A stretch of DNA of 64,000 nucleotides from Armatimonadota bacterium (GTDB lineage Bacteria > Armatimonadota > Zipacnadia > Zipacnadales > UBA11051): contig JABLXH010000004.1 of assembly GCA_013178155.1 (NCBI GenBank), positions 1 through 64,000 on the forward strand, in the 5' to 3' direction. Shown piece after piece: positions 1,547-6,516 of the stretch (position 1 is the first letter of the stretch; each line of letters begins with the position of its first letter). A model generated the notes under the pieces. That model was not told the origin of the DNA, made no database searches, and worked only from the letters and a program-made list of their open reading frames with translations. The position numbers and the translations under genes were made by a program.

Positions 1547-3037
1547 ATGGCTACCATGGACAACGCAGCGACGGACTTGCTGGCAACGGGCGTACCAGGT
1601 CTGGACGACATCCTCGGGGGTGGCCTGCGGCGGGGAGCCTGCGCCTTGCTGGAGGGCGTACCGGGTGCTGGAAAGACGACCCTTGGCACCCAGTTCATCC
1701 ACCACGGCATCACGGCCTGCGACGAGCCTGGTCTCATCTTCAGCTTCGAGGAGTTTCCCCACGAGATCTTCCGCGATGCCCGCGCCTTCGGCTGGGACCT
1801 GGACGCCCTGGAGCGCCAGGACAAGCTGCGGGTGGTCGGGACTTCGCCCGATGTGTTCAGCCGCGAGACGATGCAGCCCGGGGGCCTCTTTGATCAGTTG
1901 ATGGAGGAGATCCTGCCGCGGCGCGTACTGGTTGACAGCATCTCGTTGATGGCCCACGTAACGCGGGACCCCCAAGAGCTGCGGGAACTGGTCTATGGTC
2001 TGCGGAACTGCTTCCGCCGTCTGGGCCTTACCGCAATGATGACCAAGGAGGTCGCGTCCGCGGACCCCGAGGTGATCCCCTTCGAGGAGTATGTGGCGGA
2101 CGCCGTCATCCGCCTGAGCTATCGTCTCATCCCGGAGTCCGGTGACCGCCTGCGCGAGGTGGAGGTGACCAAGAGCCGGACACAGGCGCACGTCTCAGGC
2201 AGGCACCTCCTGGAGATCGGTCCCAACGGTCTTACCGTTTATCCGGCACCGCGGGCGGGCGTGCTTGGTGCCCCCGCGCCACACGCTCCGCTGGGGACGG
2301 AACCGGTCACCTCCGGCTGCCGCGGCCTGGACCACATGCTGCGCGGCGGCCTGCTGCCGGGCTCGCTGACCATCGTGGCCGGCAGCACGGGCGTGGGAAA
2401 GACGGTGCTGGGTCTGCAGTTCCTGCACGCCGGAGCCCGCCAGGGCCAGCGCGGTCTGCTCATCAGCCTGGAGCAGACAGCAGACGACCTCAGACGGGCC
2501 ACGGCCAGCCTGGGGTTGCCGTTGGAGCATCTGCAGCCGGGCGGGGCCATCTCCGTCTTCCAGGGCGGGAGTATGCAGGAGCCGGTGGGTATGACGATCG
2601 CGCGTATCGCCCGCGCGGTGAAGGAGGTCAGGCCGCAGCGACTGGTCCTGGACGCCATCTCAACCCTGGACAGACGACCGGGCGACCGACTGCAGGTGAG
2701 AGCCGATCTGGTCGCTTTGCTAGATATGCTACGGGCCAGTGGCGCCACTTGCCTTGTCTGCGACGAGACTCCCGGGATCATCGGTGGCTTTGCGGTCACC
2801 GGGGGAGCCCTGGTGTCGGCGATGGCCGACAACATCGTCGCGATGCGCTACGTGGAGCTGGCCAGCGCCATGCGACGGGCCCTCTCCGTCCTGAAGGCGC
2901 GGTGTGTGGACCATGACAAGGAGATTCGCGAGTACGTGATCGGCCAGGGGGGTGTGGAGCTTAAAGACAAGTTCCGCGTCGCCACCGGCCTCCTGACGGG
3001 GGCGCCGGTCCGTGCCGATGTCGACGGGTACTTCTAG
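1547..3037 (+). CDS. KaiC-like protein with two RecA-type ATPase domains
   Basis: This is a tandem RecA/KaiC-fold ATPase of about 496 aa. Walker A motifs are GVPGAGKTT (residues 37-45) and GSTGVGKT (279-286). Domain 1 keeps the KaiC Glu-Glu dyad (SFEEF, E68/E69), while domain 2 has Glu-Gln (SLEQT, E309/Q310). The C-terminal segment (DNIVAMRYVE, then HDKEIREYVI and KDKF) aligns by eye with the CII end of cyanobacterial KaiC. In that alignment the first phosphosite keeps Ser (S424) and the second (Thr432 in KaiC) is Ala. I see no KaiA or KaiB. The start is uncertain: ATG 1547 gives a normal N-terminus for the family, and GTG 1502 would add 15 residues; neither has a clear Shine-Dalgarno. Two small membrane proteins follow on the same strand, which suggests signalling at the membrane rather than a clock. 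Confidence 0.85.
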   Translation: MATMDNAATDLLATGVPGLDDILGGGLRRGACALLEGVPGAGKTTLGTQFIHHGITACDEPGLIFSFEEFPHEIFRDARAFGWDLDALERQDKLRVVGTSPDVFSRETMQPGGLFDQLMEEILPRRVLVDSISLMAHVTRDPQELRELVYGLRNCFRRLGLTAMMTKEVASADPEVIPFEEYVADAVIRLSYRLIPESGDRLREVEVTKSRTQAHVSGRHLLEIGPNGLTVYPAPRAGVLGAPAPHAPLGTEPVTSGCRGLDHMLRGGLLPGSLTIVAGSTGVGKTVLGLQFLHAGARQGQRGLLISLEQTADDLRRATASLGLPLEHLQPGGAISVFQGGSMQEPVGMTIARIARAVKEVRPQRLVLDAISTLDRRPGDRLQVRADLVALLDMLRASGATCLVCDETPGIIGGFAVTGGALVSAMADNIVAMRYVELASAMRRALSVLKARCVDHDKEIREYVIGQGGVELKDKFRVATGLLTGAPVRADVDGYF

Positions 3038-3082
3038 CGATGAGCGCCAGCGACACCAGTCTGTGGGTCGAGGGTGGGCGAG

Positions 3083-3418
3083 ATGATTGGTCCTTTTGAG
3101 GTCACCGAGGTTCTCGCGCTGGCAGTCCTCCTTGTGGCCCTCGTCGTGATGGCCCGAGTTCGGGCGCACCCCGCCAACACGCCCCGCACACGGCTCTGGT
3201 GGGGGCGCTTCCTGACACTTCTGGGTCTTGAGACGGTCTCCCAGGTGTGTACGAACCTGGAGCAGTTGTTCCCCGACGGCTCTGCCGCCAACACGGTGCT
3301 CAATGTCGGTGAACACCTCTTCGCCTGGGCGACCGGCGTCATGGCCATGGTCATCGCCTATCAGGCCCTTGTGGAAGCGGTGGCGAGGCAGGCGTCCGCG
3401 GAGGGGGAGTCGGCTTGA
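3083..3418 (+). CDS. Small 3-TM membrane protein A beside KaiC-like ATPase
   Basis: The protein has 111 residues with three hydrophobic segments: about 6-24, 40-58 (containing Glu and Cys) and 78-97. ATG 3083 was chosen because GAGGGTGGG lies 4 bases upstream; a GTG 9 bases earlier is the alternative. I do not recognise a named family. It resembles the next protein: both have R-T-R-L-W just before TM2, a Glu within TM2, an N-L-E motif after it, and a V-x-x-x-E before TM3. It starts 45 bases after the KaiC-like gene and overlaps the next start, so the three are probably cotranscribed. A role as a membrane sensor or anchor for the ATPase is an inference from position only. Confidence 0.7.
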   Translation: MIGPFEVTEVLALAVLLVALVVMARVRAHPANTPRTRLWWGRFLTLLGLETVSQVCTNLEQLFPDGSAANTVLNVGEHLFAWATGVMAMVIAYQALVEAVARQASAEGESA

Positions 3419-3723
3419 ACATCGCTATCGCGGTTGTGGATTTGCTCTCCGCCAGTTTCTTCCTGAGCGCCGCCATCATCTGCATCGCGGTCAGCCGGCT
3501 CACTGCAACCCGCACCAGACTTTGGCCCTATGTCACGCTGGTCTACCTGCTCTTTTTCACCGAGCGCGCCCTCAACTCCCTCGAGTGGGGCCTCCGTGAC
3601 GCGCGTCTGGCCTTTGTGGACCGCGTGGAGGACTACGCCTCGGTTGCGGCTTGCCTCATTCTCCTGTATGTCTCCTTGCAGTTCATCGGCCTCATTCGCA
3701 CCCGCCCCGGGCCGGTCCGCTGA
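3415..3723 (+). CDS. Small 3-TM membrane protein B, paralogue of the preceding one
   Basis: The protein has 102 residues. It starts at TTG 3415, which overlaps the TGA of the preceding gene and has a purine-rich GAGGGGGAG 5 bases upstream, so the unusual start codon is well supported and implies translational coupling. Hydrophobic segments lie at about 3-25, 36-54 and 74-93. It shares RTRLW before TM2, a Glu in TM2 and an N-x-L-E motif with its neighbour, which indicates a tandem duplication followed by divergence. No family is recognised. The topology (short loops, ending in a basic tail) is that of a small integral membrane module with no soluble domain. Confidence 0.7.
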   Translation: MNIAIAVVDLLSASFFLSAAIICIAVSRLTATRTRLWPYVTLVYLLFFTERALNSLEWGLRDARLAFVDRVEDYASVAACLILLYVSLQFIGLIRTRPGPVR

Positions 3724-3813
3724 GGGCTCCCGGGGTGGGGACGGAGCACTATCCTGGCACCGGGACGTCCGCCAGCGCCCCGGTTGGCCAGACGCCCGGC
3801 GAGGTGGTTCCTG

Positions 3814-6516
3814 ATGAAGCCAGCAGTCCTCTCCCTAGTGACCCTGATCTGGGCTGTCGGGCTGCTGTGGGCCCAGGCATCGGCCGGACCGCAGCGCAAT
3901 CTCATCCCCAACGGCGACATGGAGGCTGACGCCGATGGCGACGGCGTGCCCGAAGTCTGGGAGGCGGCCGGAAACCCGAGCTACGTGACCCAGCGCCTCT
4001 CCGGTGACCAGGGCCGTGGTGGCGGCCGGTCGCTGAGGCTCGACTGTCGCCGGATTGAGCCCATCCGGCCCGACGCGCATGCCATGGTCTGCCAACTGGG
4101 CCAAGTGGAGGTCAAAGCTGGCCAGTGGTACAAGCTCGTACTTTGGGCGAAACAGCAGGGCCTCGACGAGACCGCCATCTCTGTCGCCCTGTCCAACACC
4201 CAGGGGTGGTCCAACCTGGGGCTCAACGACTCCTTTTTGGCCACTGCGGAGTGGCAGGAGAAGGTCTTCTACTTCCGGGCAACGGGCGATGCCCATGAGA
4301 CCACGCGGCTGCAGATCTGGTACCTGAGTCCCGGCACGTTGTGGCTTGATGATGTGACGCTCACGGAGACAACGTACCAGGCCGGGCCGACGCTGGTGTG
4401 GCCTTCGGCGGGGCGGCGCAACCTCGTGCCCAACGGTAGCTTCGAGCTCGGCCCTGACGGCTGGGGCAGTATGGGCACCTTCGAGCCCGGCCGGGGCTGG
4501 CGCATGGACCTCAACGCTCTGGTCGGGTCTGTGAGCGAGACCGGCGGCGCGGTCGGAGAACGCTGCCTTGAGATACAGCTTTCCCCTGAGACCGTTCCCA
4601 TCAGCTACTTCGATTACTTCGGCATGACCGGTTCCCGGTTGCTGAGGCTCCTTACGGGCACCATCGGCTACCTGGAGACCGAACCCGGAGCGACCTACTG
4701 CCTATCGGCGTGGGTCCGCGCTAACCGTGACGACGTGCCAGTTCTTCTGGGCATCCAGCCCTTCTATGGGGCACTGAACGTCTCGCGGGAGAGGGCAGGC
4801 CGAGAGTGGCGACGCGTGTCCATCCCAATACAGGTGGTCCACGAGCACGTCTTTCCGCTCATCGGCCTGGACTGGGAGCAGGCTGGTCCGGAGCCAACCA
4901 CGCTCTGGGTAGACGGCGTGCAGTTTGAGCGTGGTACACAGCCGACGGATTTCGTGCCGCGTGACACGGTCGAGGCCGGTGTCTCCACCTCGCGCGAAGG
5001 CAACGTGTTCTTCACTGGGCAACCGGTTCGAGTGAACGTCGCGGCCACCAACCTGTCCGGCGAACCAGCCCTCCTCGAACTGCGCGTAACCGACTATGCC
5101 GATACCACCGTTCTCACCCGCCAGTTCAGGGTGGCGCCCAACCGGCGGCGGTGGCGAGAGACGGTGGACCTCGGTCTATCGCGGCGAGGCTTCTATCGTG
5201 TCCACCTCAGCCTCAACGGGGTGGAGAAACCCCGGGGCATGCGTCTCGCTCTCATCCCGCAATACCAGGCCAGCGACTCCATCTTCGGCGTCAACCACGC
5301 CTGGCCGTGGCCGCACCTGCAACGTCTGGCCGTGGCGGCAGGCATCGGCTGGGCCCGCGACTGGTCCATCAAGTGGCAGGACGTGCAGCCTGCCGAGGAC
5401 GCGCCCTTCGATTTCGCGGAGAGCGATATACAGATCAATCGGGCACTGAGCTTCGGCCAGCAGGTCCTGGGCCTGCTCCCCTTTCCCTCGGCCAACTGGT
5501 CTTCCAGTGCGCCACCGGAGGTGGTGGCGGGTGACTCCTATCCGGCCAGCCGGGCGCGCATGGCTTTCGCCCCCCGCGACGAGCGCGAGTTCGCCCGCTG
5601 GGTCAGCGAGACAGTGCGCCACTACAAGGACCGCATCAAGTGGTGGCAGGTGTTCAATGAGCCTATCTACACGGGGTACTCCCTGCCCGATGAGCACGGC
5701 TACACGGGAGCCGACTATGCCCGCTGGGTGAAGGTTTTCTACCAGGCCGCGAAGGCGGCAGACCCCGACTGCTTCGTACTGGCGGGCATCGGGGCCTGGC
5801 CCACCTACGGCAACCGCCACTTCACCGCCATGTTCGAGGCCGGAGCGCTGGACTACCTGGATGCGGTGGACGTGCACGTCTACCCCGGTCTGTCCTCACC
5901 GGAGGCCACCGCGAAGGAACTGGCAAACCTGCACCGTCTCATGGACGAGCATGGCGGCCGCAAGCCCATCTGGCTCACCGAGCACGGCTACTATGCCGAC
6001 GATGATGTGGAGCAGATACCCGTTCAACACGGCGGCTTCAACATTCCGCTCCCCAGCGAGCGCGTGCAGGCGCAGTACTCGATGCGCTTCAACGTGATGC
6101 TGCTGGCAGCAGGGGTTGAGCGCATCTTCTATCATGCCGGCACCTGCCCGGCTCTCAACCGCGACAACACCGAGGGTATCTTCTTTGAGTACGGGGGGGC
6201 TCCCCGCAAGATATACCCGGCCCTGGCGGCCTTCGCTGACCTGTTCCGGCCCGGCGTCGAGCCACTGGGGGAGCAGGACTGGGGCCAGGGCGTGAAGGCC
6301 TACCTGTTCCGGCAGGGCTCCCAGCTCATCCTGGCCGCCTGGAACAGGTCGGCGGCACAGCGGCTTGTCGTCACCTGGACCGACCGCCGCATTAGCGCTC
6401 GCGACATGATGGGCAACAGGTTGCAGGTACACGAGCTGGCCCTGGGCGCCGACCCGGTTTTCCTCTTGGCCAAGGGCCTGACCGCAGCCGAGTTCCAGCG
6501 GGCTATCCGGCGCTGA
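3814..6516 (+). CDS. Secreted GH39/clan-A-like glycosidase with two carbohydrate-binding-like domains
   Basis: The 900-aa protein begins with a signal peptide (hydrophobic residues 4-20, likely cut after AQASA). ATG 3814 follows GAGGTGG at 8 bases. Two galactose-binding-like beta domains follow, each opening with N-L-(I/V)-P-N-G (from about residue 29 and about 205), then a beta-sandwich linker, then a TIM barrel from about 500. The barrel has the clan GH-A arrangement: FNEP (acid/base Glu616) at the end of strand 4 and WLTEHG (nucleophile Glu723) at strand 7. A small beta domain ends the chain. This should be a retaining exo-acting enzyme. The family resembles GH39 or unclassified GH-A proteins, but the substrate is not evident. 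A DegT-type aminotransferase follows after 151 bases. Confidence 0.8.
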   Translation: MKPAVLSLVTLIWAVGLLWAQASAGPQRNLIPNGDMEADADGDGVPEVWEAAGNPSYVTQRLSGDQGRGGGRSLRLDCRRIEPIRPDAHAMVCQLGQVEVKAGQWYKLVLWAKQQGLDETAISVALSNTQGWSNLGLNDSFLATAEWQEKVFYFRATGDAHETTRLQIWYLSPGTLWLDDVTLTETTYQAGPTLVWPSAGRRNLVPNGSFELGPDGWGSMGTFEPGRGWRMDLNALVGSVSETGGAVGERCLEIQLSPETVPISYFDYFGMTGSRLLRLLTGTIGYLETEPGATYCLSAWVRANRDDVPVLLGIQPFYGALNVSRERAGREWRRVSIPIQVVHEHVFPLIGLDWEQAGPEPTTLWVDGVQFERGTQPTDFVPRDTVEAGVSTSREGNVFFTGQPVRVNVAATNLSGEPALLELRVTDYADTTVLTRQFRVAPNRRRWRETVDLGLSRRGFYRVHLSLNGVEKPRGMRLALIPQYQASDSIFGVNHAWPWPHLQRLAVAAGIGWARDWSIKWQDVQPAEDAPFDFAESDIQINRALSFGQQVLGLLPFPSANWSSSAPPEVVAGDSYPASRARMAFAPRDEREFARWVSETVRHYKDRIKWWQVFNEPIYTGYSLPDEHGYTGADYARWVKVFYQAAKAADPDCFVLAGIGAWPTYGNRHFTAMFEAGALDYLDAVDVHVYPGLSSPEATAKELANLHRLMDEHGGRKPIWLTEHGYYADDDVEQIPVQHGGFNIPLPSERVQAQYSMRFNVMLLAAGVERIFYHAGTCPALNRDNTEGIFFEYGGAPRKIYPALAAFADLFRPGVEPLGEQDWGQGVKAYLFRQGSQLILAAWNRSAAQRLVVTWTDRRISARDMMGNRLQVHELALGADPVFLLAKGLTAAEFQRAIRR

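Follow-up and report, generated by a model that had tools for sequence, protein, structure and literature searches.

A kaiC-like gene in a conserved unit with two small membrane-protein genes in Armatimonadota: a candidate membrane input to KaiC

The kaiC-M1-M2 locus and its conservation

The window analysed here, a stretch of 64,000 nucleotides at the start of a 104-kb contig (C146) in the 5.53-Mb draft genome of an Armatimonadota bacterium, carries a kaiC-like gene followed on the same strand by genes for two small proteins with three transmembrane (3-TM) helices, here called M1 and M2 (Table 1). The three reading frames are open as the initial annotation had described them, and the third gene does begin, as annotated, at a TTG codon over the stop of the second, with an overlap of 4 bases. 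M1 probably starts at the ATG at 3083 rather than at the GTG at 3074, because the starts of its relatives line up with the matching residue. That the three are not chance open reading frames follows from their low dN/dS between genomes G016 and G020: 0.027/0.379 for kaiC (ratio ~0.07), 0.083/0.418 for M1 (~0.20) and 0.074/0.326 for M2 (~0.23). A scan for promoters and terminators near the three genes gave nothing above chance. In the window the cassette has glycoside-hydrolase-like genes on either side (2-1480 and 3784-6516; GHL10, and GH10 with CBM_4_9); the cassette of G016 is preceded by a GH16 gene (L023:7242-8072), and these are not the same genes.

Table 1. Positions in the window of the three genes and of their domains and conserved motifs
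Feature	Position	Strand	Description
kaiC-like gene	1547..3037	+	496 aa; two RecA-type KaiC domains (PF06745 x2; PDB KaiC alignments)
CI-type domain	1583..2248	+	catalytic E68-E69 pair kept in 5/5 cassette KaiC
CII-type domain	2306..2965	+	KaiC domain match
E309-Q310, equivalent of catalytic E318-E319	2471..2476	+	alignment of KaiC rows
T418...S424-A425, phosphosite equivalents	2798..2821	+	alignment with cyanobacterial KaiC
M1	3074..3418	+	3-TM membrane protein; GTG start per initial annotation
M1 R38-W43 (RTRLWW)	3185..3202	+	positively charged loop 1, predicted cytoplasmic
M1 N61-E63-Q64 and N77-E80-H81	3254..3316	+	conserved polar; predicted extracytoplasmic ends of TM2, TM3
M2	3415..3723	+	3-TM membrane protein; TTG start; related to histidine-kinase N-terminal membrane domain
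M2 R33-W37 (RTRLW)	3511..3525	+	loop 1, predicted cytoplasmic
M2 N54-E57-W58 and D69-Y74	3574..3636	+	conserved polar; predicted extracytoplasmic ends of TM2, TM3

The unit is conserved and its linkage is strict. Among 101 relatives, single-sequence searches with M1 and with M2 picked out six genomes in common, the M1 total of 7/101 including one weak match (G066) that was rejected after its open reading frame had been read. Profile searches of 291 genomes of Armatimonadota gave six strong matches for M1 (E below 1e-47), with one weak match (G255) that was rejected, and six for M2 (E below 1e-39), with one histidine kinase besides; the strong matches of both were confined to the same 6/291 genomes. 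In all six, M1 adjoins M2 and both lie directly downstream of kaiC, the two membrane genes overlapping by 4 bases in five genomes and by 1 base in G004, as read from the frames and start codons. On the cassette contig of G004 kaiC is limited to its C-terminal third, which stands at the contig end, and an N-terminal part of a kaiC, 56% identical, stands at the end of another contig; the two pieces would fit a single split gene. No M1-M2 pair was found among the 291 genomes without a kaiC of the cassette clade. The association of the membrane genes with a KaiC-like gene, proposed at first from the window alone, holds in 6/6 genomes and involves one kaiC clade.

The matching contigs belong to 'Ca. 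Zipacnadia' or Armatimonadetes MAGs. Degenerate M1 patterns run over the genomes of 84,980 species, a scan that catches only sequences keeping those patterns, found four loci, all again in Ca. Zipacnadia or Armatimonadetes MAGs, and no relatives of M2 in viral contigs or of M1 in plasmids were found at the limits used. When the predicted genes of the five other loci were set against the window, kaiC, M1 and M2 were the only neighbours in common across three families; G020 and G023, which belong to one family, also have upstream genes in common, for example DUF456. There is no output gene that stands beside the unit. The weak M1 matches were named by eye: a NADH-dehydrogenase-like protein in G066 and a polytopic glycosyltransferase-like protein in G236, each read from a minus-strand frame of matching size, and in G255 an unrelated membrane protein of 138 aa; all three were left out of the counts of six.

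Residues and relatives of the KaiC protein

In the window's KaiC (P0001) Pfam PF06745 matches with 287 bits and marks two KaiC ATPase domains, each with a Walker A motif; the protein so belongs to the two-domain KaiC family, in agreement with its first description as a KaiC-type double ATPase. Cyanobacterial KaiC structures in the PDB align with it from end to end, and it stops 3 residues past the last aligned position; the final residue of the cassette proteins is F in 6/6. With cyanobacterial KaiC1 and KaiC2 and their bacterial homologues it has in common the tandem domains, the EE pair of CI and the equivalents of T426 and S431. It differs from KaiC1 and KaiC2 in having two membrane genes linked to it and neither kaiA nor kaiB, in a C-terminus that stops ~3 residues past the aligned core, and in the replacement of E319 by Gln (5/5). 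This second catalytic position of CII is Q in 5/5 cassette KaiC, whereas it is E in 18/18 rows of a KaiC type with a C-terminal solute-binding-protein domain (KaiC-SBP) and in 9/9 other KaiC rows.

At the phosphosites S424 aligns with S431 of cyanobacterial KaiC, A425 with T432 and T418 with T426. The initial annotation had S424 as a retained autophosphorylation serine and Ala at the second site; this is correct for the window but is not a family trait, since the second site is S in 5/6 cassette KaiC and A in the window alone, while 6/6 have retained the equivalents of T426 and S431. The dual site of the S431/T432 type is thus absent, being S-A in the window and S-S in the other 5/6. Two serines are described for KaiC2 homologues, and T426 as highly conserved, in the accessible part of PMC5520375, and the S-S arrangement of 5/6 cassette proteins is as in KaiC2 there. 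The equivalog models for the clock protein both stayed below their curated cut-offs, TIGR02655 with 230 bits where 546 are required and PRK09302 with 307 bits where 408 are required.

KaiA was detected in 0/6 cassette genomes, with a positive Synechococcus control, and KaiB in 0/6 above the cut-off, one weak partial match of 21.7 bits arising in G000; the window had likewise been annotated as having neither. KaiB exceeded the cut-off in 2/41 genomes of the order. At L078 (G019:C243:1121-2833) kaiB lies directly behind a divergent kaiC with 29% identity to that of the window, so a KaiBC pair exists in the order apart from the cassette.

KaiC is found at E <= 1e-40 in 83/291 genomes of Armatimonadota. 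Our tree was built from 32 regions, namely 30 loci and the second KaiC of the window's own genome and of G042, and left out the cassette fragment of G004; it is a quick tree with some long branches elsewhere. In it all five full-length cassette KaiC fall into a single clade with an SH-aLRT of 100, and their sister group, with a support of 94 for the join, consists of KaiC proteins with a long C-terminal extension. The long tail is present in 18/32 rows, and a solute-binding-protein domain was found in 7/7 of those scanned. In these KaiC-KaiC-SBP fusions of the same order the input would thus be the C-terminal solute-binding-protein-like domain (7/7 scanned), where the cassette has M1 and M2 instead; they also differ from the cassette proteins in an I or V at the second phosphosite, with a CI pair that is mostly E-Q and a CII pair that is E-E.

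Two three-helix membrane proteins and a kinase input domain

AlphaFold2 models M1 with helices at 10-30, 37-63 and 71-113 (mean pLDDT 90.9) and M2 with helices at 3-29, 36-59 and 66-96 (85.9 in the best model, 63-74 in the other four). We predict that both proteins are oriented N-out/C-in by the positive-inside rule, because in 12/12 M1 and M2 proteins the first loop is basic and the second carries a net acidic charge. With such a topology RTRLW would be cytoplasmic, and the conserved polar residues would lie on the outer side, where TM2 and TM3 end; the conserved N, E, H and D residues on the outer side could be structural. RTRLW and the N-x-L-E or N-L-E motifs were originally reported as common to the two proteins. 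They are present in both proteins of the window, M1 having TNLEQ (60-64) and M2 NSLEW (54-58), but exact RTRLW varies among the relatives, the invariant residues being T39, W42 and W43 in M1 and T34, L36 and W37 in M2. No PDB fold matched either model at E <= 0.001. The DgkA and NuoK-like fold matches of M2, which did not reach that limit, are generic helix bundles, and the Pfam matches of single M1 members (DUF2304, NrsF, DctQ, Yip1) are scattered and below cut-off.

The two proteins were also annotated as paralogues. Their helix layout and the placement of their conserved motifs are the same, and there is a weak shuffle signal (3/150 and 0/100 topology-preserving shuffles were as good), but BLASTP aligned only the 5 residues of RTRLW and hhalign gave a probability of 2.5%; paralogy is possible and weakly supported. 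Against the kinase N-terminal domains described below, M1 was equalled by 17/200 shuffles when these were used alone, by 1/200 when M2 was added to them and by 3/200 when DUF5985 proteins were added as well, and its place in the family formed by M2 and the kinase sensors is tentative.

M2 gave a clearer result. Elsewhere in the phylum its profile matched a single protein, a PAS-GAF-HisKA kinase in G011, in the 3-TM region at the N-terminus. The E for one genome was 6.3e-5; over the 291 genomes scanned, and with the reciprocal test left aside, ~0.02 such matches would be expected by chance. The kinase region, used as the query against 41 genomes, found counterparts in G016 and G020, where the proteins were taken by eye as the same kind of kinase, and returned the cassette M2 of G023 (E 1.4e-4). 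Comparison of M2 with the three kinase domains gave an hhalign probability of 83% (E 8.6e-6) and a score of 35.3 against 19.9 for the best shuffle, 0/200 topology-preserving shuffles being as good. These reciprocal matches and shuffles place M2 in one superfamily with the domain and support its relationship, in sequence and in topology, to the three-helix membrane domain with which PAS-GAF-histidine kinases of the same order begin. M2 differs from the kinases (G011, G016, G020) in that it lacks a PAS, GAF or kinase part and has a separate KaiC gene in their place.

More distantly, M2 appears to resemble DUF5985 (PF19447). That family was matched weakly by 3/6 M2 members (best E 0.048), its gathering cut-off being reached by no M1 or M2, and a joint M2-kinase profile compared with six DUF5985 proteins gave 74%, E 2.9e-5 and 0/200 shuffles as good. 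In the phylum DUF5985 is present in 2/291 genomes, as a tandem pair both times, with no cassette genome among the matches. The pairs are likewise two adjacent small 3-TM genes, but they are preceded by an ORF of 129 aa where the cassette pair is preceded by kaiC. Judged by its profile matches to the kinase domain and to DUF5985, M2 seems to be a small membrane module for signal input that here occurs as a separate protein. The tandem DUF5985 genes are close or overlapping (L085:7322-8260, L086:8550-9486, L091:3717-4255), and the 129-aa ORF has no Pfam match (one scanned). An overlapping DUF5985-like pair is also carried by a Sphingobium plasmid, on which other genes fill the 2.5 kb between the pair and a kaiC; this was not counted as linkage.

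A putative membrane route to KaiC

These observations suggest that this KaiC could receive signals straight from the membrane, because the conserved unit includes the sensor-like M2. We judge it somewhat better than an even chance that kaiC-M1-M2 is a KaiC signalling unit in which M1 and M2 serve as a stand-alone membrane sensor and anchor controlling a KaiC hexamer. The two small three-helix proteins would sit in the inner membrane, N-terminus out and C-terminus in, and would read a signal on the outer side through E9, E12, N61, E63, Q64, N77, E80 and H81 of M1 and N54, E57, W58, D69 and Y74 of M2. The signal would be passed to the cytoplasmic KaiC hexamer by way of the basic loop 1, on the cytoplasmic side, and of helix 3, which is long, and KaiC would respond with a change in its ATPase and autophosphorylation state, for which it may be equipped by the EE pair kept in CI and by the equivalents of E318, T426 and S431 kept in CII, where E319 has become Gln. 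The changed state may in turn alter the binding of KaiC to a downstream target that is not encoded nearby. That M1 and M2 sense the outside and set the state of KaiC is the simplest reading, because a module that elsewhere fronts kinases is found here in a fixed KaiC operon. Exchangeable inputs on KaiC would fit, because the sister KaiC in the same genome carries a C-terminal solute-binding-protein domain. The membrane-coupled signalling role suggested in the initial annotation gains support from the relationship of M2 to the membrane input domain of histidine kinases, of which that annotation held nothing. A stronger version, which we put forward only tentatively, is that a heteromeric pair of three-helix sensors directly sets the ATPase and phosphorylation of the KaiC hexamer, one member being derived from, or common to, the kinase input domain; KaiC would therefore replace the kinase as the cytoplasmic transmitter.

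The main rival to a sensory role reverses the direction, with KaiC upstream as an ATPase/phosphorylation switch that gates or assembles a membrane complex (a pore, a transporter part or a stress effector) of which M1 and M2 are the output. The linkage at 6/6 loci serves this reading equally well, and an ATPase gene followed by genes for small membrane proteins is a frequent arrangement among effectors. A precedent is offered by the KaiC relative ArlH, which works with the archaeal membrane motor (accessible part of PMC13286277). We nevertheless think it unlikely: M2 is akin to a kinase input domain and to no known pore or transporter, each protein has only three helices with no PDB fold match, and PADLOC-DB assigns neither M1 nor M2 to a defence family and gives KaiC only a 53-residue P-loop match to mad8, a P-loop-level match that leaves an anti-phage role unsupported. 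The strict linkage and the basic cytoplasmic loops would also suit a pair whose main task is to anchor KaiC to the membrane, within reach of the other receptors or kinases that act on it there; but pure anchors need no conserved polar residues on the outer side, where these residues are predicted to cluster, and the anchor is in our estimation improbable.

Chance juxtaposition of an independent M1-M2 pair with kaiC has in its favour that no sequence link joins M1 or M2 to KaiC and that tandem DUF5985 pairs exist without an adjacent kaiC. It is nonetheless very improbable in view of the 6/6 linkage over three families whose other neighbours are not in common, the identical presence pattern in 291 genomes and the failure of M1-M2 to occur without the cassette kaiC clade. 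We give least credence of all, and hardly any, to a circadian or hourglass KaiC timer. The S-S arrangement of 5/6 cassette proteins, the retained T equivalent and the two serines of KaiC2 homologues (PMC5520375, accessible part) would be compatible with one; the 0/6 for KaiA and for KaiB above the cut-off, the short C-terminus, the loss of the second phosphosite in the window and the sub-threshold clock equivalogs argue against it.

Makarova et al., cited in PMC5847659, reportedly described KaiC-like ATPases in 2017 as signalling hubs of archaea. As in those hubs, a KaiC ATPase with varied inputs may be at the centre here, but the cassette is bacterial and has a dedicated, linked pair of membrane proteins. 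In the literature searched, outside which Makarova et al. 2017 falls, no description of a unit of kaiC and two membrane proteins was found, nor did the term DUF5985 or KaiC together with transmembrane and Armatimonadetes occur there, and no such unit appears in the accessible parts of PMC5520375, PMC5847659, PMC6393860, PMC13286277 and PMC10290634. Within that literature the unit is, as first supposed, previously undescribed, and the relationship of M2 to the N-terminal membrane domain of histidine kinases is new here. A compact conserved unit of this kind gives a specific route, open to experiment, by which the membrane could pass input to KaiC, and a small membrane module would be common to three sets of proteins: histidine kinases, DUF5985 pairs and, through the linked M2, a KaiC. 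Were the stronger version, with a heteromeric sensor pair setting the state of KaiC, true, it would represent a new kind of transmembrane receptor system with KaiC as the transmitter.

The sister type of KaiC is of interest in its own right. KaiC-KaiC with a C-terminal SBP_bac_1 or SBP_bac_8 domain, ~880-900 aa in length, is a second and widespread KaiC of the order, found at L028:10643-12727 (in the window's own genome, C49), at L035:1465-4143 and at similar loci, and in several of these an ORF of 130-160 aa, winged-helix-like in appearance, lies directly upstream. The catalytic pairs of the two types appear to be swapped, KaiC-SBP having mostly E-Q in CI and E-E in CII where cassette KaiC has E-E in CI and E-Q in CII. 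In G042 (L089:5603-14266) a single strand carries, in order, a KaiC-SBP, a response regulator, a HAMP-MCP protein, a CheA-like kinase with Hpt, HATPase and CheW domains, a further response regulator and a second KaiC, which places KaiC inside a chemosensory-like cluster.
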